IMG/VR virus record: IMGVR_UViG_3300032082_001065
Span: 1-23,419 of that record
Length of the DNA: 23,419 nucleotides
Source of the DNA: a virus
Reading direction: 5' to 3' (one strand)
The translations under genes were made by a program, and so were the position numbers. The notes beneath the pieces are model-generated. The model saw only the letters and a program-made list of their open reading frames with translations, was not told where the DNA came from and did no database searches. Each line of letters begins with the position of its first letter. Position 1 is the first letter of the stretch. This document shows positions 5,026 through 23,419 of this stretch, piece by piece.

Positions 5026-8000
5026 TTATCCCCAGACTACTGAACCACCACTATCATAGACTTTAAGTAATCTATTTGAACTATCATATAGATCTTCTAT
5101 AACTGCGTTAGCTGCTATTGTTATATCGTTGAATGAAACACTTGCTCCTGTAGCTACATCCTGACCGATATGAACTCCAGTTGAGTTAGATGTTACACCT
5201 GTGCCACCTACTACTGCAAATGATCTAGAAGCAGCAATATTACCACCACCTGTTAAACCATTGCCTGCTGTAAGAGTTACTGATGTATGATTAATATGCT
5301 CATTAGCTACAAACCCTGATAATGAATCATGATTAATTTGTGAATCGTTAGTAAATACACCTGAACTGTTTGCTGTAATACCTGTGTTAGCTACGACTGC
5401 TACTGCTGGTTCCCATCCTTCTCCAGCTGAACCTGTAACAGCTATACCATTACCTCCAGTAACATTATCTACATAGTTACCAGATGTGTCTGTTCCTAAT
5501 GCAATATCATTTGCTTTAGTATGGAAAGCATATTCAGTTCCACCAGCTAGTTTATGTGTCCATCTATCAGCTGATTCATCCCAGAAGAATAAAGCATTAG
5601 CTGAATCACCTCTTTCTACTTCTAATCCTGCATCAACAGAAGGAATACCTGTTTGATCTTTTGCTATAGTTATAATTGCATCAGTAACTGCTAATGTTGC
5701 TGTAGATACTGTTGTCTGAGTACCTGAAATAGCTAGGTTACCTGATACTGTTACATCATTAAACGTCACATCATCAGTAGTTCCTACTGCTTGACCAATA
5801 TGAACACCAGTTGCATTTACGGTTACACCAGTACCTGCTTTAACAAATGTACCTGTTGAATTAGATGTAATACCGTTATTAGCTTTAACTGCTACCGCTG
5901 AACTGTTTACTGATAAACCATTTCCAGCTCCTACTGATACAGCAGTTGAGTTAGCAACAATACCATTACCTGCTCCTACGTTAATAGTTCTTGTAGAAGC
6001 GATTGTACCACCACCTGTTAAACCTGTTCCAGCTGTTACTGAAACTGTACTATGGTCTATATTTTCATTAGCAACATAACCTGATAAGTTATGAATATCA
6101 ATATTACTTTCTGCTATAAATACACCAGACGAATTAGATACAACTTGATTATTACCTGCAGCTACAGCTAAAGTTCTAGAAGAAGCTATAGTACCGCCTC
6201 CTGAAAGACCGTTACCAGCTGTAATAGTTACTCCTGAATGATCTATGTTTTCATTAGCAACATATCCAGAAAGATTATGAATATCTATATTTCCTTCGGC
6301 AATAAATACACCAGATGAATTTGATACAACTTGATTGTTACCTGCAGCAACTGCTAGAGTTCTATTAGCAGCAATTGTACCACCTCCAGATAATCCATTA
6401 CCTGCAGAGATTGAAACACTTGAGTGATCTATATTTTCATTAGCAACGTAGCCTGAAAGATTATGAATATCTAAATTACTTTCGTTTACAAATACTCCAG
6501 AAGAATTAGATACTACTTGGTTATTGCCTGCAACAACATGTACACCAGTTGAGTTAGATGCTACACCTGAGCCTGCTGATACTGCTACAGCAGTTGAATT
6601 TACTCCAATACCGTTACCAGCTCCTACTGCAAATGATCTGCTTGTAGTAATATTACCACCACCAGTTAAACCATTTCCTGCAGTTAATGTAACTGAACTA
6701 TGATTTATATGCTCATTAGCAACAAAGTTTGATAAACTATCGTGATCTATTCCTGATGCATCTGCATATACTCCGGAAGCATTAGATGTAATACCTGTAC
6801 CAGCTACAACATGGACTCCTGTAGAGTTTGAAGCAATACCTAGTCCTGCTGTAACAGCAAATGATCTTGAAGCAGTAATATCACCGCCTCCTGTTAAACC
6901 ATTTCCAGCTGTTAATGAGACGCTTGAGTGATTAATATGTTCGTTAGCTACAAAACCTGATAAGTTATCATGAACAATAGCCGAATCGTCTGTAAATATT
7001 CCTGTTGAGTTAGCTGTTATACCAGTATTAGGTACTACTGAAACTGCTGTTGTATTAACAGATAAACCAGCACCAACGCCCAAGTTTAAAGTAACATCAC
7101 CAGTTGTACCACCACCGGTTAAACCATTGCCAGCAACTACGGACTCAATGTCTCCCGCGTCGTTTGTAAAACTAAATTGCCCAGTACTATTATCATAACT
7201 TATATCTCCACCACCGCTGAATAAGCCTCTTATAGTAGATGAGTTAATTGATAGAGCTGTTGAGTTAACATTTAAACCATTACCTGCAGCAACATGAACA
7301 CCAGTAGCATTTACGACAACACCATCGCCTGCATCTACTGCAAATGATCTTGATGCAGCAATTGTACCACCACCAGTTAAACCATTACCAGCTGTAAGCG
7401 TAACACCGCTATGATCTATATTTTCGTTAGCAACATAACCTGATAAGTTATGAATGTCAATGTTACCTTCATTGATAAAGACACCAGTTGAGTTAGATAC
7501 AACTTGATTATTACCAGGCTCAACATGAACTCCAGTTGAGTTAGATGTTATACCACTGCCTCCGTTAACAGCTACAGTAGTATTATTAACAGTAATACCA
7601 TTACCTGCACCTGCAGTAATAGTAACTGTACCAGTAGAACCGCCTCCAGTTAAACCTGAACCAGCAACTATATCAGTAATACTAGAATTACCTACGTCAA
7701 AACCAGCATCGTTATTAAATGCTGATAAAGGTATTTCTGAAATTAATTTTCTTTTATCTGCACCGTTATCTAATATGATAAGTTCATCTTCTGAATTTGT
7801 AACACTTTGCGTCATATCTGGTAATTCAGATAAATCAACAAATACACCTGAGCTGTTAGCAGATAGGCCTGTATTAGCTATAACAGCTATAGAAGGATCT
7901 GATCCTTCTCCTGGTGTGTGAGTAACAGCAATACCGTTGCCTGCTGTTACATCATCGATATAATTACCTGACGTATCAGTTCCTAAAGCAATATCGTGTT

Positions 8001-9108
8001 GTTTTGTATGCAATACATATTCAGTTCCACCTGCTAGTTTTTGAATCCATCTATCTTGTGATTCATCCCATACAAGTAATGCATTAGCAGAGTCACCTCT
8101 TTCTACTTCTATACCTGCATCTAAAGCTGGTGTACCTGTCTGTCCAGATGCAACTGTAATAACTGCATCGTTAACTACTAAATTGTTTGTGTCAACAGTA
8201 GTTTGTGTTCCTTGAATTGTTAGATTACCTGATACGATAACATCACTAAATGTTACGTCAGCTGTTGTGCTAACATCTTGTCCTATATGAACACCCGTTG
8301 CATTTACAGTAACACCTGTTCCTGCTGTAACTTTTAAATCAGTTGAATTAGCTGTTAAGCCATCTCCTGCTGCAACGTGTACTCCAGAAGAATTAGATAC
8401 TAAAGCAGTATTACCAACTACTGCTAGTGATCTTGTTGATGTTAAATCACCACCCCCTGATAGACCATTACCAGCTGTAACTGAAACTGAACTATGGTTT
8501 ATATTTTCATTAGCTACGTATCCGGATAAATTGTGAATATCAATATTACTTTCATTAATAAAGATACCTGATGAATTAGATACTACTTGAGTATTACCTG
8601 CTACAACGGCAAATGATCTTGAAGCTGTTATATCTCCACCGCCAGTTAAACCATTACCTGCTGATAGGGATACAGAGCTATGGTTTATATGTTCGTTTGC
8701 TACAAAGTTGCTTAAATTATCATGATCGATACTTGATTCTAATACGTTTATAAAACCTGTTGAGTTAACAGATACAAGATCGCCTACTTTTATTAAGCCT
8801 GAAACTGTTGAATTAGCCGATGGCAAAGTTTGAGCATAAGTAGAACCATCGCCTGTGCTTAATACAAATGTAGTATTAGAAGCTGTATACGTAAAATTAT
8901 CTACGCCGCTTACACTTGCACTTTGGATGTTTGTTACTAGACCTTTTGCATTAACTGTTACGACTGGAATAGTCGTAGTGTTACCTACAGTTCCTGCACT
9001 TGCGCCTGAATTTGGAAGCGCTGATGAGTTAACGACACCTGAGCTACTTGTTACCTCAACGCCGCCTACTTCTAAGCCATTTTTTACTCTAAAATTTTGA
9101 TTTGCCAT
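5026..9108 (-). CDS. Giant modular tail-fibre-like virion protein (1360 aa)
   Basis: A predicted virion fibre, exact role unknown. It starts with a short non-repeated head (MANQNFRVKNGLEVGGVEV) of a kind common in marine myovirus fibres. A long array of 40-70 residue repeats follows. Each typically carries NSSGVF, a D/NHxxLSxxVANExIxHSSV segment and AGNGLTGGG followed by ASRSFAV. I count eleven GxGL[T/S]GGG motifs. A module of about 163 residues occurs twice, at 262-424 and 1091-1253. It contains SGNLxIxGTQTTV, DAGxEVERGDSANAL and LGTDTSGNY. The protein ends DSSNRLLKVYDSGGSVVWG. It is rich in Ser, Thr, Asn, Gly and Val, with no Cys and no signal peptide. Lying directly before gene 13, it occupies the T4 gene 12/wac place. 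Whether it is a long side fibre, a whisker or a short fibre cannot be told. Confidence 0.85.
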   Translation of the reverse strand: MANQNFRVKNGLEVGGVEVTSSSGVVNSSALPNSGASAGTVGNTTTIPVVTVNAKGLVTNIQSASVSGVDNFTYTASNTTFVLSTGDGSTYAQTLPSANSTVSGLIKVGDLVSVNSTGFINVLESSIDHDNLSNFVANEHINHSSVSLSAGNGLTGGGDITASRSFAVVAGNTQVVSNSSGIFINESNIDIHNLSGYVANENINHSSVSVTAGNGLSGGGDLTSTRSLAVVGNTALVSNSSGVHVAAGDGLTANSTDLKVTAGTGVTVNATGVHIGQDVSTTADVTFSDVIVSGNLTIQGTQTTVDTNNLVVNDAVITVASGQTGTPALDAGIEVERGDSANALLVWDESQDRWIQKLAGGTEYVLHTKQHDIALGTDTSGNYIDDVTAGNGIAVTHTPGEGSDPSIAVIANTGLSANSSGVFVDLSELPDMTQSVTNSEDELIILDNGADKRKLISEIPLSAFNNDAGFDVGNSSITDIVAGSGLTGGGSTGTVTITAGAGNGITVNNTTVAVNGGSGITSNSTGVHVEPGNNQVVSNSTGVFINEGNIDIHNLSGYVANENIDHSGVTLTAGNGLTGGGTIAASRSFAVDAGDGVVVNATGVHVAAGNGLNVNSTALSINSSTIRGLFSGGGDISYDNSTGQFSFTNDAGDIESVVAGNGLTGGGTTGDVTLNLGVGAGLSVNTTAVSVVPNTGITANSTGIFTDDSAIVHDNLSGFVANEHINHSSVSLTAGNGLTGGGDITASRSFAVTAGLGIASNSTGVHVVAGTGITSNASGVYADASGIDHDSLSNFVANEHINHSSVTLTAGNGLTGGGNITTSRSFAVGAGNGIGVNSTAVAVSAGSGVASNSTGVHVVAGNNQVVSNSSGVFVNESNLDIHNLSGYVANENIDHSSVSISAGNGLSGGGTIAANRTLAVAAGNNQVVSNSSGVFIAEGNIDIHNLSGYVANENIDHSGVTITAGNGLSGGGTIASSRTLAVAAGNNQVVSNSSGVFIAESNIDIHNLSGYVANENIDHSTVSVTAGTGLTGGGTIASTRTINVGAGNGIVANSTAVSVGAGNGLSVNSSAVAVKANNGITSNSTGTFVKAGTGVTVNATGVHIGQAVGTTDDVTFNDVTVSGNLAISGTQTTVSTATLAVTDAIITIAKDQTGIPSVDAGLEVERGDSANALFFWDESADRWTHKLAGGTEYAFHTKANDIALGTDTSGNYVDNVTGGNGIAVTGSAGEGWEPAVAVVANTGITANSSGVFTNDSQINHDSLSGFVANEHINHTSVTLTAGNGLTGGGNIAASRSFAVVGGTGVTSNSTGVHIGQDVATGASVSFNDITIAANAVIEDLYDSSNRLLKVYDSGGSVVWG
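5350..5838 (-). repeat. 163-residue duplicated module, copy 2
   Basis: This codes for residues 1091-1253 of the 1360-aa fibre. It matches residues 262-424 (bases 7837-8325) over its whole length, including VTVNATGVHIGQ, EVERGDSANAL and GTDTSGNY. The two copies flank the shorter repeats near each end of the protein. Confidence 0.85.
7837..8325 (-). repeat. 163-residue duplicated module, copy 1
   Basis: This is the N-terminal copy of the module at 5350-5838. A shorter relative (SGNLTVSGTTTTI, INDNLIKLAANQT, DVDTGI) occurs near residues 243-285 of the 344-aa fibre encoded at 10837-11871. The module is thus shared between neighbouring proteins. Confidence 0.8.
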
Positions 9109-16269: not shown

Positions 16270-16487
16270 TAGGTTACCTCACCACCATCTATACCACCTC
16301 TAGCAGCTGCTACAGATACAGGCACAAATGTATTTGATGAGGAGTTATAAGCCAAGACTTCACCGTTTGCAACTACTGTATAATCAATATTTAAACCTGT
16401 AATATCAGTTGTCGCTGTTTGGTTTTTAATTATTTTAGTTACAATTGGTGTTGATGTAGTTTGAATTGTTGCTACTGTATTAGCCAT
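16269..16487 (-). CDS. Small structural-cluster protein (72 aa)
   Basis: Not recognised beyond its resemblance to small virion proteins in T4-like fibre clusters. The product is Thr/Val-rich, with TDITGLNIDY and ANGEVLAYNSSSNTFVPV, and ends GGIDGGEVT, close to the DGGTY end of two other proteins in the cluster. Both ends form TAATG overlaps with neighbours, which supports it as a real translated gene. The short length and beta-type composition suggest a single small domain. Confidence 0.75.
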   Translation of the reverse strand: MANTVATIQTTSTPIVTKIIKNQTATTDITGLNIDYTVVANGEVLAYNSSSNTFVPVSVAAARGGIDGGEVT

Positions 16488-16822
16488 TAGTAAGTAACCT
16501 CCGGTGTAACAGTTGCTTGACCTTGTAAAACTCTATTAACTGTTGAGCCTCCACCTAGAGAGACTTCAACATCATACATATAACGTCCAGGAGGAATAGC
16601 ACCTGTAGTTGAATTATTTGCTGAAAGTGTTAAGATACCATTTATTGGATCAGTAGCAGATGCACTAATCGTATATGAAGTATTTGAGGACCAATGCTTA
16701 CGTAATTTACATGCAGCATTGTATCCAGTCAGGTTAAATACAGCCCCATTAGCCTGTGTGACTGTAACAGCCAAAGAAAAGTCAGTACCTTTATCTATTA
16801 AAATATTTGCGCGCGTAGCCAT
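16487..16822 (-). CDS. Small beta-sandwich virion protein (111 aa)
   Basis: A 111-aa product that looks like a single beta-sandwich domain of the type at the N-terminus of phage baseplate upper proteins (BppU-like). It has GTDFSLAVTVTQANG, FNLTGYNAACKLRK, NGILTLSANN and PPGRYMYDVEV, then LQGQATVTPEVTY. It opens the run of five genes linked by TAATG overlaps. TGAGGTG lies 5 bases before the ATG as a strong ribosome binding site, and a weak late promoter box lies just upstream. Exact role unknown. A baseplate or fibre attachment part is likely. Confidence 0.8.
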   Translation of the reverse strand: MATRANILIDKGTDFSLAVTVTQANGAVFNLTGYNAACKLRKHWSSNTSYTISASATDPINGILTLSANNSTTGAIPPGRYMYDVEVSLGGGSTVNRVLQGQATVTPEVTY

Positions 16823-16868: not shown

Positions 16869-17708
16869 CTACGCTTCTTCTATTTCTTCACAGAGATCTT
16901 CCCATATCATTCTGTCAGGGACAACAGTTGATAAAGTAAACCTTCTAGTAATGGCATGAGCACAATGCCAGCATGCTGTTTCTTGGTCAGCTAGAATAGG
17001 AGTTGTATAGGTTTGCTCGTGTTTACCGAACTTACCTGCAATCTTATCACTATAAGTATTCGGATCTGAAACAGTGTCATAAAAAATACCAGCTCTAGCT
17101 ACCCAACCAGGCTCATCTTTATATTCAACTATTTCACCATCATCATATGTATAAAATGATCCGCTTCCTTCTTTATTATAATGAAGTAAAATATTATGAC
17201 CAGGAGCATTTCCATTATGATGCCATGGAATATGTCCTCCGGGTTGATAGAAAGCACATAAAGCCATAGCTGAACCGCCTAACCATTTATGTGATATATC
17301 ATATACCATATCTCTAAACCAATCATAATCTTTATTTATTTCCCAAATCTTTTTACCAGTTACAAATGGTTCTAAATTAGGAAACCCTTTAGTTTCATGA
17401 GTATGAGGTCCCTTTTCTTTCATAAGTTTTTTTTGATAATTTAAATATTCAATACTAATAGGGCTCATCTGATTAGGTTTTAATGTATCGTTCATACTCC
17501 AGGGTAAGATATCCCAATGAGGAGCAGCTATATAGGCCTCTTCTTTATTATTTTTTTTTCTTTCTTCTGGATTTTTTTGATTATATTCTCTTTTCATCAT
17601 TTCATCCATAAGTTCTTGATCATCAAATAATTCATCAACCTTTAATGCAAGAGCATCTAGTTTTTCTAATAAATCAGGATTTCTTAATTTAAGAGTTTTC
17701 ATTCTCAT
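16869..17708 (-). CDS. 2-oxoglutarate/Fe(II) oxygenase-like protein with altered metal motif
   Basis: A 279-aa protein. The helical, charged N-terminus (1-60) precedes a double-stranded beta-helix oxygenase region. Visible core parts are CAFYQPGGHIPWHHNGNAPG (151-170), NILLHYN, GSGSFYTYDD, EPGWVARAGIFYD and a distal HCAHAITRRFTLSTVV (248-263). In this fold iron is usually held by HxD and a distal His, while an Arg/Lys binds 2-oxoglutarate. Here H251 and R255/R256 fit, but the proximal motif is H163-H164-N165-G166, lacking the usual Asp. It is read as HxN or HxG, which could alter chemistry or mean lost activity. The ATG overlaps the glycosyltransferase stop by 4 bases (ATGA). A second ATG two codons later is possible. 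Substrate unknown. Context suggests a virion protein. Confidence 0.72.
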   Translation of the reverse strand: MRMKTLKLRNPDLLEKLDALALKVDELFDDQELMDEMMKREYNQKNPEERKKNNKEEAYIAAPHWDILPWSMNDTLKPNQMSPISIEYLNYQKKLMKEKGPHTHETKGFPNLEPFVTGKKIWEINKDYDWFRDMVYDISHKWLGGSAMALCAFYQPGGHIPWHHNGNAPGHNILLHYNKEGSGSFYTYDDGEIVEYKDEPGWVARAGIFYDTVSDPNTYSDKIAGKFGKHEQTYTTPILADQETACWHCAHAITRRFTLSTVVPDRMIWEDLCEEIEEA

Positions 17709-18553
17709 ACTGGATTACCTCCAGGACCTGTACCAGGTTGATATTCATCTTCTAAATGTAATCCTGGTGTTTGGTTTAATAACCCTCTATTAATAGGATG
17801 ATGTTTAATAATAGGTTTTAATCCTCCATGAGAATTTTCTCTCATATAATGATTCCAATTCCATCTAAGCATCTCGTGCTTATTATTATTTTCTATTTCT
17901 TGTATTTTAAGATCTGGAATTAATTTTTGATGTATCCACCACCAAGTAAATTGATCCCATGCTCGATTTTTAAAATAAATTTCAGGATGATTTTTCCAAA
18001 AATCAGGATTAGCATTTATATTTAAATACTCAGTCCACCATAAGTTCATTGCTTTTTGAGCATTAGGATGTTTATCATTATTCCACCATAAGAAAAATCC
18101 ACCATGATATCTTAAATGCTTTTCTACTTTATTATCTCTTATATCTGCTTTACCTTCTTTAGTATAGATTGCTGTACTTGCACCTGTATTAGGATCAATA
18201 ACAGTAAAGGCACAATCATGATTATCATCTAATAAATCAAAAACTCTTTCTATTTCTTCATCTACTATTTCCATATCAGCATCTAAATAGCAAGTTTTTT
18301 CAAACGGTGTATGTTGAAGAGCCCATAATTTAGATCTTACACTTATTGGAAAATCTTCACTAACTACTTTAATAACTGAATCTAATCTTTCAAAATCTTC
18401 TACCCATTCTGGATGACATGCAACCATTACTTTTGGATCATCATAAAAATCTTCTAAACTCTCTATACATTGTATCGCACTATTTTTATAGTGGTTATGC
18501 ATAGAAGCAACTAATAAAAAACCTTCTTTATGTTTCTGTTCTGTCATAATCAC
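17705..18553 (-). CDS. GT-A fold glycosyltransferase
   Basis: A 282-aa predicted nucleotide-sugar-dependent glycosyltransferase. The N-terminal half has the order FLLVASMHNHYKNSA, KVMVACHPEW, SVRSKLWAL, then CYLDADMEIVD. D91-A-D93 is the DxD motif that binds the metal and sugar nucleotide. The C-terminal half has HGGFFLWWN (150-158), AWDQFTWWW (198-206, with the WDQ common in acceptor sites) and KPIIKHHP (246-253), as in GT8-like enzymes. No membrane segment or signal is seen, so it acts in the cytoplasm of the infected cell. The start overlaps the 138-aa gene by 26 bases, and an in-frame ATG two codons later is an alternative. The acceptor is unknown. DNA, lipopolysaccharide or the neighbouring fibre are possible. 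Position in the virion operon favours a virion protein. Confidence 0.8.
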   Translation of the reverse strand: MIMTEQKHKEGFLLVASMHNHYKNSAIQCIESLEDFYDDPKVMVACHPEWVEDFERLDSVIKVVSEDFPISVRSKLWALQHTPFEKTCYLDADMEIVDEEIERVFDLLDDNHDCAFTVIDPNTGASTAIYTKEGKADIRDNKVEKHLRYHGGFFLWWNNDKHPNAQKAMNLWWTEYLNINANPDFWKNHPEIYFKNRAWDQFTWWWIHQKLIPDLKIQEIENNNKHEMLRWNWNHYMRENSHGGLKPIIKHHPINRGLLNQTPGLHLEDEYQPGTGPGGNPV

Positions 18554-18944
18554 TCACTACTGCTGCACCATAGACATATAATTCTGCAAATGTTTTAGCT
18601 TTACGAATACGTCTTTTTAATTTTTTATTAGTAGTTTTTTTAACTTCTTCAATTTCCATTACTGATAGTTTTTCAATAAACAGAGATTCCTGCATTTGTC
18701 TTTCTTCATTCTCTTTATGAAATTGTTCTTCAGCTAATTTTTGCTCTCTGAACTTTTTTACATCTTCTTCAGACCTTGCAGTAATTTCATCAATAGAAAA
18801 TTCTGCTAAAACAGCATCGTAGTTTTCTTTATCAGCGGGATCTATGATAAGCTCTCTACTACCTGTTTCGGTAATTTCTAGAGCTCTTATACGTTTTTTT
18901 TCTTCTGGTATTTCCCAGAGAGCGGATTTAAATCGCTTTGCCAT
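18528..18944 (-). CDS. Conserved charged protein of T4-like marine phages (138 aa)
   Basis: The start MAKRFKSALWEIPEEKKRIR is familiar to me from T4-like marine phage genomes, but I know no function. The middle (60-110) is a highly charged helix rich in Glu/Lys/Gln, probably coiled coil. It is followed by a basic KLKRRIRKAK and a short hydrophobic end. TGAGGT lies 9 bases before the ATG as a strong ribosome binding site, and a late promoter box overlaps the stop codon of the gene upstream. It heads the small operon with the glycosyltransferase and the oxygenase-like gene. A scaffolding, chaperone or regulatory role cannot be told apart. Confidence 0.78.
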   Translation of the reverse strand: MAKRFKSALWEIPEEKKRIRALEITETGSRELIIDPADKENYDAVLAEFSIDEITARSEEDVKKFREQKLAEEQFHKENEERQMQESLFIEKLSVMEIEEVKKTTNKKLKRRIRKAKTFAELYVYGAAVVSDYDRTET

Positions 18945-18991: not shown

Positions 18992-18999
18992 TATTTATG
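18992..18999 (-). promoter_or_regulatory. Candidate late promoter for the 138-aa/glycosyltransferase/oxygenase genes
   Basis: The minus strand reads CATAAATA, one mismatch from TATAAATA, laid over the stop codon of the giant repeat protein. It lies 48 bases before the ATG at 18944. The leader contains an ATAATAATAATAATG triplet run (about 18964-18979) of unknown meaning. An overlapping AATAAATA four bases on gives a second possible box. Confidence 0.5.
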
Positions 19000-21900
19000 C
19001 AACTCTTAGCCACAGTTTTATTGTAGAATTATTTGAACCAGTAGCCTGAATAGTATCACCTGCAAATTGACCTGTAAACTGAGATGAATAAGTAGATGTA
19101 TATTGTGGCCCTACTATTAATCTAGCAAAAGAATTTCCATCATAAGAAGGACCAGGTGTTGTTCTAGCATATCCTACACTATAATTATCACCTACCACAA
19201 GCCTAGCAAATTGACCTCTTGTATATTGAGGACCTGGAGTAGTTCTACTATACTGTGATGTATACTGCGGTCCAACAACAAGCCTTGCAAACTGACCTCT
19301 TGTATATTGAGGACCTGGAGTTGTTCTTGCATAGTTAGCTGTATAATTTGGACCAGTAACTAATCTAGCATAATCACCATCCGAATAATTAGGGCCTGGA
19401 GTTGTTCTAGCATACCCTACACTATAATTAGGCCCGGGTGTTATTCTAGCATAATCACCGTCTGAATAATTAGGACCTGGAGTAGACCTGGCATAGTTAA
19501 CTGTGTATTGAGGACCAGTAACTAATCTAGCATAGTTACCATCTGAGTAATTCGGCCCTGGAGTTGTTCTAGCATAGTTTACCGTATACTGAGGTCCAAC
19601 TACTAATCTTGCATATCCTGCAGAATAGATTCTAGTAAATTGTCCTGTATACTGAGCTGTAAATTGTCTTGTAAATTGTCTACCATATTGCGCAGAATAT
19701 ATCCTAGCATATTGACCAGTATATTGAGCTGTAAATTGTCTAGTAAATGACCTTCCATATTGAGCAGAATAAATTCTAGCATATTGACCAGTGTATTGAG
19801 CAGTAAATTGCCTTACAAATGACCTTCCATATTGAGCTGAATAAATTCTTGTATACTGCCCTGTATATTGTGCAGTGAACTGTCTGTTGAATGATCTTGC
19901 ATAATCAGCTGAGAATATCCTAGTAAATTGTCTTGAGTATTGACCTGAGTAAATTCTAGCAAACGCTCTACCATAACCCGCTGAGAATATTCTAGTAAAC
20001 TGTCTTGCATATTGACCGGCATAAGATCTAGCAAACTGTCTACCGTACCCTGCGGAGAATATTCTAGTATATTGACCGGTGTATTGAGCAGTATATTGTC
20101 TATTAAAAGATCTGCCATACTGTGCTGAATATATTCTTGCGTATTGACCTGTGTACTGAGCTGTATATTGTCTGTTAAATGATCTTCCATACCCCGCAGT
20201 AAATATTCTAGTGAATTGTCTTGTATATTGCCCACTATAGTTTCTTGCAAAAGATCTTCCGTATCCTGCTGAGAAGATTCTTGTAAACTGCCTTGAGTAT
20301 TGCCCATTATATATTCTAGTAAATGATCTACCATACCCCGCAGTAAATATTCTAGTGAATTGTCTTGCATATTGACCGTAGTAAACTCTTCCGAACGCTC
20401 TACCATAACCTGCTGAGAAGATTCTTGTAAACTGTCTAGCGTATTGACCATAGTAAACTCTACCAAACGCCCTACCGTATCCGGCTGAGAAAATTCTTGT
20501 AAATTGTCTCGCATATTGGCCATAATAAACTCTACCATAGTTTACAGCATAAGCTGGTCCTGGTCTTGCTCTGTTATAATTAACAGCGTAGTTAGGTCCG
20601 CCTACTATTCTTGAGTAACTTACACCGTAAGCAGGCCCTGGTCTTGCTCTGTTATAAGATCCGTAATATATTCTACCAAAAGATCTGTTGTATTGAACTC
20701 CATAAGCCGGTCCTGGTCTTGATCTACCATAGTTACCATAGTATATTCTACCAAACGCTCTATAATATTGTACACCGTAAGCAGGTCCTGGTCTTGCTCT
20801 ATTATAAGAACCGTAATAAATTCTACCATAGTTAACAGTATAGTTTACAGCATAATTTGGTCCTGGCCTTGATCTCGCAAATGTACCAGCATATAAACCT
20901 GAAGTTTGTCTGAAGTAGTTTGGTAATCTAGAAAAACCTTTATATTCACCCCCTATTGGAGGGAATGCAGAAAATCCACTAGCGTAAGAATTTGCGCTAC
21001 GCATGTAAAGAGTACCTCTATAATACTGCGAGCCAGCCTGGTCTTGATCTGGAGGTGGGAAGAATGTTGGAGGACCAAAATAATTTTCAGGAGGTGCTCC
21101 ATATGCAGTAGCATATCCACTAGTATTTAAAGAATCTGCATTATAGCCAAAATCAAATGCTAGACGTGAAAAATTAGACCCGGTGTATTGACCGTAGTAA
21201 ACTCTTCCAAAAGATCTACTATAAGATACACCATAAGCAGGTCCTGGTCTTGATCTACCATAGTTACCGTAATAAATTCTACCATAGTTAACTGTGTAAC
21301 CAACTGAATAGTTAGGTCCTGGTCTTGCTCTATTATAAGAACCGTAATAAATTCTACCATAGTTAACAGTATAGCCTACAGCATAATTTGGTCCTGGAAC
21401 TGATCTACCATAGTTTCCATAATAAATTCTACCGTAGTTAACAGTATAACCAGCTGAATAAATTCTAGCAAATGATCTACTATAATTTCCATAATAGATT
21501 CTGCCGTAGTTTACAGCATAAGCTGGTCCAGGTCTAGCTCTTGTATACTGACCATCTGAATAATTAGGTCCTGGAGTTATCCTAGCATAGTTAACAGTGT
21601 AGTTAGGACCTGGTCTAGATCTTGTATACTGACCATCTGAATAGTTAGGACCTGGTGTTGTTCTAGCATAGTTAACGGTATAGTTAGGTCCAGGTCTTGA
21701 TCGAGTATATTGTCCATCACTGTAATTAGGGCCTGGTGTTATTCTAGCATAGTTAACTGTATAAGCAGGTCCTGGTCTAGCCCTAGTATATTGCCCATCA
21801 GAGTAATTTGGTCCAGGTGTAATTCTAGCATAGTTAACAGTGTAGTTAGGGCCTGGTCTGCTTCTAGTATATAGAGGACCACTGTATTGAGGTCCAGGTG

Positions 21901-23419
21901 TAATCCTTGCATAGTTAACTGTATAATTAGGTCCTGTAACAAGCCTTGCAAACTGGCCTCTAGTGTATTGTGGACCTGGTGTAATTCTAGCGTAGTTAGC
22001 TGTATAATTTGGACCGGTTACTAATCTAGCAAACTGTCCTCTTGTGTACTGCGGTCCTGGAGTTATTCTAGCATAGTTGACTGTATACTGTGGCCCAGGT
22101 CTAGCTCTTGTATATTGTCCATCAGAATAATTAGGACCAGGAGTTGCTCTTGCATAGTTAACAGTGTAGTTAGGACCAGGTGTAATTCTAGCATAGTTAC
22201 CATCTGAGTAAGCTGGTCCTGGAGTTGCTCTTGAATAACCTACTGAGTAGTTTGGACCTGTTACTAATCTTGCAAATTGACCTCTCGTGTATTGAGGTCC
22301 GGGAGTAGTTCTACTATACTGAGAAGTGTAATTAGGACCGGTTACTAATCTAGCAAACTGTCCTCTTGTGTACTGCGGTCCTGGAGTAATTCTAGCGTAG
22401 TTAGAAGTGTACTGATCTCCAGTAATTAGTCTGGCAAACTGCCCTCTAGTATATTGTGGTCCTGGGGTTATTCTAGCGTAGTTAGAAGTATATTGATCTC
22501 CAACTACAAGTCGAGCAAACTGACCTCTTGTATATTGAGGACCTGGAGTTGATCTTGCATAGTTTGTTGTATACTGTCTAGTAAATTGTCTTCCATATTG
22601 GGCTGAATATATTCTTGTAAACTGCCTTGCATATTGTCCTGTAAACTGTCTAGTAAATTGTCTACCGTATCCTGCTGAGAAGATTCTAGTAAATTGTCTA
22701 GCATAATCTCCAGTAAATGTTCTAGCAAATGCTCTTGTGTATTGTGCTGTAAAAATACGAGTAAACTGTCTTGCATAGTCACCGGTAAATTGCCTGTTAA
22801 ATGATCTACCATATTGAGCTGAATAGATTCTTGTAAACTGGCCAGTGTATTGAGTTGTATACTGTCTAGTAAATTGTCTCCCATACTGGGCTGAATATAT
22901 TCTTAAATATTGTCCTGTATACTGAGCAGTAAACTGTCTATTAAATGATCTAGTATAATCTGCAGTAAATGATCTTGCAAATTGTCTTGTATATTGTGCT
23001 GTAAATTGCCTCGTAAACTGTCTACTAAAGTTGCCTGTAAACTGATTTGAATATTGTTCAGAAGTATTATCAGCTACTTGATCTATTAAACTATCACTTA
23101 CTTGAACCCAAGTACCTGTTCCCGGGGCACTAGCTTGTAATTTATAAGTACCCACACCTGTAGCTACAATTCTATTTCTTAATCTTTGAGTTAAGGATTG
23201 AATTTCAGCAGTAGACATCTGCTTTATAAGTGAACCGTCTAACTTAACAGTTGGTATATTAGTATGACTTATACCATCGTCTGTTTTACGATATAAATTA
23301 TAAGTTTGATTAGTTCCACCATCATGAGTAATAGTATCAGTAACTGATGCCTTATTAGCCCATGTACCCCCTGATGGAGCTGAAGTACCAAAATAGTATT
23401 GACCCGTAGCATAGCTGGA
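18995..23419 (-). CDS. Giant aromatic/Arg tetrad and PGP repeat virion protein (at least 1474 aa, 5' end outside window)
   Basis: The frame is open from the right window edge to TAA at 18995-18997. The ATG at 23216-23218 is internal: 67 further codons upstream are open and continue the domain pattern. Counting from that Met, the layout is: 1-55, a unique head with a YKLQASAPGTGTW module; about 56-220, tetrad repeats x-[YF]-x-[R/A/G] in 24-residue units; 220-563, 27-residue units with TPGP/RPGP; 563-680, NYGRIYYG units; 680-780, a unique Pro-rich domain; 780-900, YYG/RPGP units; 900-1203, 24-residue tetrads; 1203-1383, PGP units; 1383-1407, a tail. I count about 35 PGP. Cys is absent and Lys is rare. 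Similar Tyr-Arg repeats occur in other marine myovirus virion proteins, but no function is known to me. A fibre or adhesin role is inferred. Confidence 0.88.
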   Translation of the reverse strand, partial: SSYATGQYYFGTSAPSGGTWANKASVTDTITHDGGTNQTYNLYRKTDDGISHTNIPTVKLDGSLIKQMSTAEIQSLTQRLRNRIVATGVGTYKLQASAPGTGTWVQVSDSLIDQVADNTSEQYSNQFTGNFSRQFTRQFTAQYTRQFARSFTADYTRSFNRQFTAQYTGQYLRIYSAQYGRQFTRQYTTQYTGQFTRIYSAQYGRSFNRQFTGDYARQFTRIFTAQYTRAFARTFTGDYARQFTRIFSAGYGRQFTRQFTGQYARQFTRIYSAQYGRQFTRQYTTNYARSTPGPQYTRGQFARLVVGDQYTSNYARITPGPQYTRGQFARLITGDQYTSNYARITPGPQYTRGQFARLVTGPNYTSQYSRTTPGPQYTRGQFARLVTGPNYSVGYSRATPGPAYSDGNYARITPGPNYTVNYARATPGPNYSDGQYTRARPGPQYTVNYARITPGPQYTRGQFARLVTGPNYTANYARITPGPQYTRGQFARLVTGPNYTVNYARITPGPQYSGPLYTRSRPGPNYTVNYARITPGPNYSDGQYTRARPGPAYTVNYARITPGPNYSDGQYTRSRPGPNYTVNYARTTPGPNYSDGQYTRSRPGPNYTVNYARITPGPNYSDGQYTRARPGPAYAVNYGRIYYGNYSRSFARIYSAGYTVNYGRIYYGNYGRSVPGPNYAVGYTVNYGRIYYGSYNRARPGPNYSVGYTVNYGRIYYGNYGRSRPGPAYGVSYSRSFGRVYYGQYTGSNFSRLAFDFGYNADSLNTSGYATAYGAPPENYFGPPTFFPPPDQDQAGSQYYRGTLYMRSANSYASGFSAFPPIGGEYKGFSRLPNYFRQTSGLYAGTFARSRPGPNYAVNYTVNYGRIYYGSYNRARPGPAYGVQYYRAFGRIYYGNYGRSRPGPAYGVQYNRSFGRIYYGSYNRARPGPAYGVSYSRIVGGPNYAVNYNRARPGPAYAVNYGRVYYGQYARQFTRIFSAGYGRAFGRVYYGQYARQFTRIFSAGYGRAFGRVYYGQYARQFTRIFTAGYGRSFTRIYNGQYSRQFTRIFSAGYGRSFARNYSGQYTRQFTRIFTAGYGRSFNRQYTAQYTGQYARIYSAQYGRSFNRQYTAQYTGQYTRIFSAGYGRQFARSYAGQYARQFTRIFSAGYGRAFARIYSGQYSRQFTRIFSADYARSFNRQFTAQYTGQYTRIYSAQYGRSFVRQFTAQYTGQYARIYSAQYGRSFTRQFTAQYTGQYARIYSAQYGRQFTRQFTAQYTGQFTRIYSAGYARLVVGPQYTVNYARTTPGPNYSDGNYARLVTGPQYTVNYARSTPGPNYSDGDYARITPGPNYSVGYARTTPGPNYSDGDYARLVTGPNYTANYARTTPGPQYTRGQFARLVVGPQYTSQYSRTTPGPQYTRGQFARLVVGDNYSVGYARTTPGPSYDGNSFARLIVGPQYTSTYSSQFTGQFAGDTIQATGSNNSTIKLWLRVA
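19070..19610 (-). repeat. PGP-type repeats, distal block
   Basis: Units of about 81 bases coding 27 residues, such as NYARTTPGPNYSDGDYARLV with a following TGP/VGP. On the plus strand the word ggacctggagt recurs. It is the second block of the type found at 21530-22560. Confidence 0.88.
19610..20520 (-). repeat. 24-residue (72-bp) aromatic/Arg tetrad repeats, distal block
   Basis: Each unit is six tetrads with Tyr or Phe in second place and Arg, Ala or Gly in fourth, for example QYARQFTRIFSAGYGRAFGR plus VYYG. At least a dozen units run in near-perfect register. Silent sites differ between copies. Confidence 0.9.
20520..20880 (-). repeat. NYGRIYYG/RPGPAYGV repeats, block after the unique insert
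   Basis: Units of about 25 residues, such as AYGVQYYRAFGRIYYGNYGR followed by SRPGP. They are related to the block at 21180-21530 on the other side of a unique domain. Confidence 0.85.
21180..21530 (-). repeat. NYGRIYYG repeats, block before the unique insert
   Basis: Units contain VGYTVNYGRIYYGNYGR followed by SRPGP or SVPGP, 21-25 residues each. They bridge the PGP block upstream and the unique Pro-rich domain downstream. Confidence 0.85.
21530..22560 (-). repeat. PGP-type 27-residue (81-bp) repeats, proximal block
   Basis: Two sub-types alternate: NYARITPGPQYTRGQFARLV with TGP, and NYARITPGPNYSDGQYTRAR with PGP. Both are 27 residues. About 20 PGP motifs fall here. Confidence 0.9.
22560..23050 (-). 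repeat. 24-residue aromatic/Arg tetrad repeats, proximal block
   Basis: Same type as 19610-20520, for example DYARQFTRIFSAGYGRQFTR plus QFTG. The block begins right after the SAP-GTW head module, at the segment QYSNQFTGNFSRQFTRQF. Confidence 0.88.

Follow-up and report, generated by a model that had tools for sequence, protein, structure and literature searches.

A mirrored, tyrosine-rich repeat protein of uncultured T4-like phages: a candidate hairpin tail fibre

An open frame of 1,474 amino acids (18995..23419, on the minus strand, as are its segments and the four downstream genes discussed below) lies at one end of a 23,419-base IMG/VR virus record, which is the whole stretch of DNA analysed here and is referred to as the window. 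The frame encodes a giant protein of low-complexity composition, dominated by Tyr, Gly, Arg and Asn, in which aromatic residues keep returning at short distances. Is this rhythm maintained by selection, and what kind of structure might such a chain form? The 5′ end of the gene, and with it the N-terminus of the protein, is cut off by the contig end; a full-length orthologue of 1,505 aa is found at another locus (L004).

Rhythm, repeat blocks and family of the giant protein

Across the body of the giant protein, one Tyr or Phe follows another at a distance of exactly four residues in 166 of 276 cases (60%), compared to a mean of 10% and a maximum of 17% in shuffled sequences. A first-pass annotation of this DNA had described about 1,300 residues of tetrads. 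The rhythm is indeed far above chance, but only the two A blocks keep it strictly, with runs of 42 and 64 aromatics at intervals of four, so that strict tetrads cover about 430 residues. The same annotation correctly gave the block order as A-B-C-unique-C-A-B, with units of 24, 27 and 25 residues, and saw that Cys is absent and Lys nearly so (0 and 0.5%, respectively, in the body of the protein); it missed what this order may mean, namely a chain that runs out and back. The units of block B have aromatic spacings of 4-9-5-9, and we read all three unit types as tetrads with one-residue bulges: six tetrads in A, six tetrads plus three bulges in B, and six tetrads plus one bulge in C.

The window protein begins with the rest of an N-terminal anchor domain, comprising the end of module M2 and the first half of module M3 (aa 1-118, 23066..23419). 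The first arm consists of block A1, with flat 24-residue units (about aa 119-290, 22550..23065), block B1, with 27-residue units carrying three one-residue bulges each (about aa 291-680, 21380..22549), and block C1, with 25-residue units (about aa 681-744, 21188..21379). Halfway along the tail (centre 0.51) comes a non-repetitive segment, the predicted hairpin tip (aa 745-836, 20912..21187). The second arm contains block C2 (about aa 837-985, 20465..20911), the flat units of block A2, which would face B1 (about aa 986-1280, 19580..20464), and the bulged units of block B2, which would face A1 (about aa 1281-1450, 19070..19579). The chain ends in a C-terminal strand, TIKLWLRVA (18998..19069).

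The frame, whose loss in close relatives had been proposed as a check, is kept. The window protein and its L004 orthologue are 86.8% identical in amino acid sequence, with a dS of about 1.2 and a dN/dS of 0.083. Only 12 of 256 aromatics are changed (nine of them by exchange of Tyr and Phe) and 2 of 145 Arg residues, and Pro sites are also nearly fixed. Between repeat units of a single giant protein, synonymous sites are saturated, indicating that the repeats are old and selected. Copy number does vary, as it would in a neutral, satellite-like expansion of repeats devoid of function, but the low dN/dS, the almost fixed aromatic and Arg sites and the saturation between units refute that explanation, and we consider its probability practically negligible. 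The tetrad rhythm is genuine, and purifying selection on it is strong.

The prediction that no described family would account for the protein held: searches of Pfam, PHROGs and PDB sequences yielded no informative family. The sole family match is phrog_20647 (E 8e-20, aa 114-283), which covers 170 of the 1,474 residues and has no stated function, and the PDB sequence search gave two matches, both at chance level (E 0.05). A match to Enterococcus phage Riverwalk was rejected as chance, the matching stretch being unannotated with its neighbours on the opposite strand.

Relatives of 331-3,884 aa occur in uncultured T4-like phages. They begin with a common domain of about 240 aa, continue as a Tyr-rich tail that varies greatly in length and composition, and end in a C-terminal TYTLYVRVA or TLKLWLRIA. 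Two scans of IMG/VR recovered 187 and 304 matching stretches; among 50,697 phage records, phage C48C1 alone has relatives of the giant protein and of three proteins encoded downstream of it (c138, GT and OXY, see below). Among uncultured aquatic phages the family is widespread; isolates almost entirely lack it. Six residues (Tyr, Thr, Ser, Asn, Gly and Ala) are present in every one of 103 tails. Arg is not an essential element of the repeats across the family, as it falls to about 1% in some tails.

Several variations on this plan were seen. Acidic tails almost without Arg (NYTGEFINE..., YEGDFIADFILD...) occur in L074:1-9930 and L140:2-5515, with the aromatic spacing kept or relaxed. Members of 3,347 aa in phage C48C1 (L002:15693-25736) and 3,884 aa (L010:4349-16003) contain, dispersed over their second half, several domains without repeats, each of about 60-250 aa. 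Directly upstream of the giant gene, many loci encode a second, shorter tetrad protein of 800-900 aa with a midpoint unique segment of its own (L004:7572-10040, L005:950-3385, L006:7581-10205 and L007:7578-10058, among others); the window ends before the place that this gene occupies in its clade.

Mirrored arms and a split terminal module

Fifty-two family proteins have a single unique segment, and in most of them it lies at 0.49-0.51 of the tail; the members that do not fit are the giants with several unique domains and those whose unique segment is absent or off-centre. The two arms, of 193-690 aa, are nearly equal in length (ratio 0.979, SD 0.024). When the arms are compared in mirror order, unlike block types lie opposite each other, with a correlation of composition down to -0.80 in the C48C1-like clade and near zero in the parallel control.

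The arms also change length together. In 27 disjoint protein pairs, we counted 30 cases of same-sign indels at mirrored places, compared to 5 in the parallel control; the proteins are related and the tests not fully independent, although no protein was used twice. Randomising the indel positions gave a mean of 9.4 and a maximum of 20 matches in 2,000 trials, none reaching 30, and the excess was significant separately in two strata. The paired indels were exactly equal in size in 23 of the 30 cases, their positions inside the repeats being uncertain by up to one unit. Examples are insertions of 352 residues in each arm (L048 vs. L055) and of 176 residues in each arm (L044 vs. L054). Comparison of the window protein with its L004 orthologue shows a joint change of two 27-aa B units in arm 1 and, at mirrored positions of arm 2, two 24-aa A units. 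Other proteins of the same viruses showed no excess of mirrored indels (1 match, 0.5 expected). An origin of the paired indels at the DNA level was considered and rejected, inverted repeats between the arms being imperfect and at most 20 nt long.

Tail indels of at least 8 aa are overwhelmingly even in length (126 even vs. 12 odd, compared to 41:33 in control proteins), as expected if both faces of a beta-strand must be kept; this supports the first-pass suggestion of beta-strand character. The two structures it had derived from this character, a solenoid and a sticky polymer, fared less well. A solenoid with fixed turns of 24, 27 or 25 residues finds no support in the many even indel sizes that are tolerated when mirrored in the other arm, and in a structureless polymer the exact matching of the two arms in length and register would be needless.

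Slips in the phase of the aromatic rhythm fall at the same mirrored position in both arms. A simple mod-4 phase test fails in the window clade, which is expected for a 24:27 pairing but is no proof of such pairing. Counted from the base in steps of 12 tetrads, bulges number [0,0,0,4,6,6,6,6,6,5,1,2] in arm 1 and [5,6,6,2,0,0,0,0,0,1,3,2] in arm 2. In the window protein and its L004 and L005 counterparts, a bulged strand always lies opposite a flat one, so that, over most of the presumed ribbon, every twelve tetrads carry about six bulges when both strands are added up. Folding at the unique segment would place A1 on B2, B1 on A2 and C on C, which accounts for the order A-B-C-unique-C-A-B.

The two ends of the protein are also related. 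Against M3, the module M2 profile aligns mainly over its first half; its other half instead finds the last residues of the protein. The strand at that end has its homologue in the TYxLYRK strand of the N-terminal module, and would complete the split module. In 74 of 80 independent family members, the final 30 aa align with the strand that the module lacks; 46 of 1,600 shuffled sequences and 33 of 1,540 tail pieces did so. When M3 and the C-terminus were scored as one joined sequence, the score did not clearly rise, an ambiguous result. Since the strand missing from the N-terminal module has its homologue at the C-terminus, the tail appears to be inserted in a split module, with both ends of the repeat region apparently anchored together.

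A possible hairpin fibre in the host-recognition cluster

The virus is a T4-like phage, with gp15 and neck proteins (Pfam) and a terminase, and in relatives baseplate-like and fibre-like genes lie upstream of the giant gene. The giant gene stands at the start of the host-recognition cluster, between baseplate and neck genes, the same place as the host-recognition cluster of cyano- and pelagimyophages (PMC7029224). A cyanophage origin was rejected, as 12 related contigs contained no psbA.

Conservation falls along the arms. Mean identity is 0.87 in the N-terminal domain, 0.82 in the basal, 0.75 in the middle and 0.65 in the distal part of the arms, 0.53 in the tip, and 0.90 at the C-terminus; the tip is less conserved than the basal and middle parts in 19 of 27 pairs, and tips have been exchanged between proteins otherwise 85-90% identical. 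This fall in identity from base to tip, together with the location of the gene, fits a receptor-binding fibre, in agreement with the earlier description of a fibre-like marine phage protein. We consider it quite likely that the giant protein serves a T4-like phage as a tail fibre for host recognition, with a chain built as a hairpin.

We propose that the repeat region is fastened at both ends to a small N-terminal anchor domain made of three related modules, the third of which receives its last strand from the C-terminus. The chain would go outward as arm 1, turn at the variable non-repetitive tip and come back as arm 2, the arms forming a very long beta-ribbon of two antiparallel, in-register strands. 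One face of the tetrads would show Tyr/Phe and Arg/Gly, the opposite face Thr/Ser/Gln/Asn. In the window protein, one strand would be flat (A) and its partner would carry one bulge per two tetrads (B), with C facing C; the flat and bulged roles would swap about 40 tetrads from the base. At full extension, the 618 residues per arm would span about 200 nm, assuming 0.33 nm per residue and no coiling. The tip would be the part that probably contacts the host, and the glycosyltransferase-like and oxygenase-like proteins encoded downstream probably modify the fibre. The complete proposal, in which one chain of as many as several thousand residues goes out and returns as an antiparallel two-stranded beta-ribbon with a split-module base and a swappable midpoint receptor-binding tip, evolves by paired indels and is modified by its own glycosyltransferase-like and oxygenase-like partners, seems to us somewhat more probable than its alternatives taken together.

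Most known phage fibres are parallel trimers, and the giant protein could be a conventional fibre of this kind, a parallel homotrimer or beta-solenoid with a basal N-terminus and a C-terminal distal tip, in which each unit of 24-27 aa makes one turn, a size that suits solenoid turns. This is quite improbable given a variable segment at the chain midpoint, a C-terminus as conserved as the N-terminus, compensatory indels at mirrored places and the many even sizes that these take. Moreover, the C-terminal strand belongs to the N-terminal module, which does not agree with a distal C-terminus. The shafts of adenovirus and phage fibres made of triple beta-spirals or beta-helices are homotrimers of parallel chains whose C-termini lie at the tip; they share with the giant protein short-period repeats in long beta fibres, but differ from it in that its arms are mirrored.

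A disordered, sticky cation-pi or amyloid-like polymer, such as a mussel-foot-like adhesive, would have no defined fold, and both the low-complexity composition and the AlphaFold2 model of aa 1-520 (the arm 1 side, without arm 2), which shows no fold and a pLDDT of 22-30 over the repeats, are compatible with it. The model can also be set against the hairpin, although without arm 2 it does not bear either way on pairing of the arms. A disordered polymer has no need of equal arms, a phase-locked register or exactly matched indels, nor does a cation-pi adhesive sit well with the low Arg content of some tails, making this reading highly improbable.

The arms might instead pair between chains: in an oligomer, each subunit's arm 1 would lie against arm 2 of the next subunit. 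This arrangement satisfies every pairing test equally well, and nothing in the sequence speaks against it, lengths and ends being identical. A hairpin within one chain is the simpler explanation, and we consider pairing between subunits distinctly unlikely.

We know of no tail fibre with both chain ends at the base and the tip in mid-chain, and we found no description of such a hairpin fibre in the open-access literature. FhaB/CdiA filamentous adhesins are very long, secreted bacterial proteins with solenoid repeats and a recognition segment roughly halfway along the chain. The likeness to the giant protein lies in the very long repeat chain and the mid-chain recognition segment; homology was not found, and to our knowledge no compensatory arm indels have been described in FhaB/CdiA. 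The tail fibres of T4-type phages, including cyanophages and pelagimyophages (PMC7029224), resemble the giant protein in their location between baseplate and neck, their 'L-shaped tail fiber assembly' neighbour and a variable adhesin-like end, but have no sequence similarity to it; in the giant protein both ends would lie at the base and the tip in mid-chain.

If the hairpin model is correct, paired indels in the fibre arms do for a protein what compensatory changes do for an RNA stem, and make a hairpin fold directly testable from sequence. Such a fold would be a new means of making fibres that are very long and thin, with length and tip free to evolve independently of each other, and would offer a design principle for beta fibres. 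Given how common it is among uncultured aquatic phages, the family may play a part in host recognition in the ocean and in fresh water.

Downstream genes

The giant gene is followed by c138, GT, OXY and usually c111. The first encodes a conserved 138-aa partner (18528..18944), a possible assembly chaperone; its relation to the upstream 'tail assembly chaperone' of C48C1 is not detectable. GT is a GT-A-type glycosyltransferase-like protein of 282 aa (17705..18553) with a conserved DxD (YLDADME); the only Glycos_transf_2 matches, in 14 of 21 members, lie below the Pfam cut-off. The c111 product (16487..16822) is a relative of the PHROG 'L-shaped tail fiber protein assembly' and is also encoded in cultured phages, at the equivalent place. 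No such cassette was found between the VrlC/baseplate genes and the c111 gene in HTVC008M and P-HM1. Three GT relatives in bacterial genome records, all in metagenome bins, are probably phage contigs.

OXY (279 aa, 16869..17708) has a model with the double-stranded beta-helix fold of 2OG-Fe(II) oxygenases (pLDDT 77.9, pTM 0.80), which aligns with PHD2 (3oui; Z 10.7, 146 residues, rmsd 3.3) and has the bacterial P4H 4iw3 as its top Foldseek match. PDB sequence profiles of OXY, GT and c138 gave chance matches only. An H163-x-N165...H248...R256 motif is invariant in 27 members; judging from the motif spacing, its Asn would correspond to the iron-binding Asp. Because Asn thus replaces the Asp/Glu of the usual HxD/E...H iron triad, which is unusual for 2OG-Fe(II) enzymes, we call the protein 2OG-oxygenase-like and its activity putative.

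With the tetrad protein as bait and enough downstream DNA, OXY was present in 59 of 59 loci and GT in 61 of 62. With GT as an independent bait, c138 lay nearby in 64 of 65 loci and OXY in 60 of 65, the remaining five having OXY further along the contig. GT and OXY probably modify the fibre. They might instead have the host surface as their target (LPS O-chain, superinfection exclusion) and be mere neighbours of the fibre, a role that has been proposed for glycosyltransferases of the pelagimyophage host-recognition cluster (PMC7029224) and is in keeping with the extra glycosyltransferase-like genes of some loci. We consider it somewhat unlikely, given the near-invariant linkage to the giant protein and c138 and the second family member that lies between GT and OXY in L142-L145 (711 aa in L142:6841-8973).

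As for the reaction on the fibre, serine-rich repeat adhesins have dedicated glycosyltransferases, and collagen and plant hydroxyproline glycoproteins are acted on by a hydroxylase and a glycosyltransferase. These systems resemble the giant protein in being long repetitive fibres with their own modifying enzymes, nearby or sequential, but the tails of its family are mostly Pro-poor, unlike collagen-like systems. Pro is absent from 10 of 103 tails and below 1% in 65, and collagen-like prolyl hydroxylation therefore cannot be the shared reaction.

Some loci carry further genes near the cassette. Judged by eye, and with no Pfam match, these resemble sulfotransferases, methyltransferases and a second type of glycosyltransferase (L126:7278-8000, L111:8164-8766, L111:8766-9374 and L099:8092-11703); a radical SAM gene is found at L126:9360-10511. 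In the related viruses L099 to L108, the same cassette precedes a run of genes on the opposite strand, coding for about 230-275 aa each. Elsewhere in the window, a 1,360-aa protein with AGNGLTGGG repeats (5026-9108) has a Pfam match to Peptidase_S6 that looks spurious (24.3 bits for a cut-off of 23.3, in no single stretch), and is probably another fibre.
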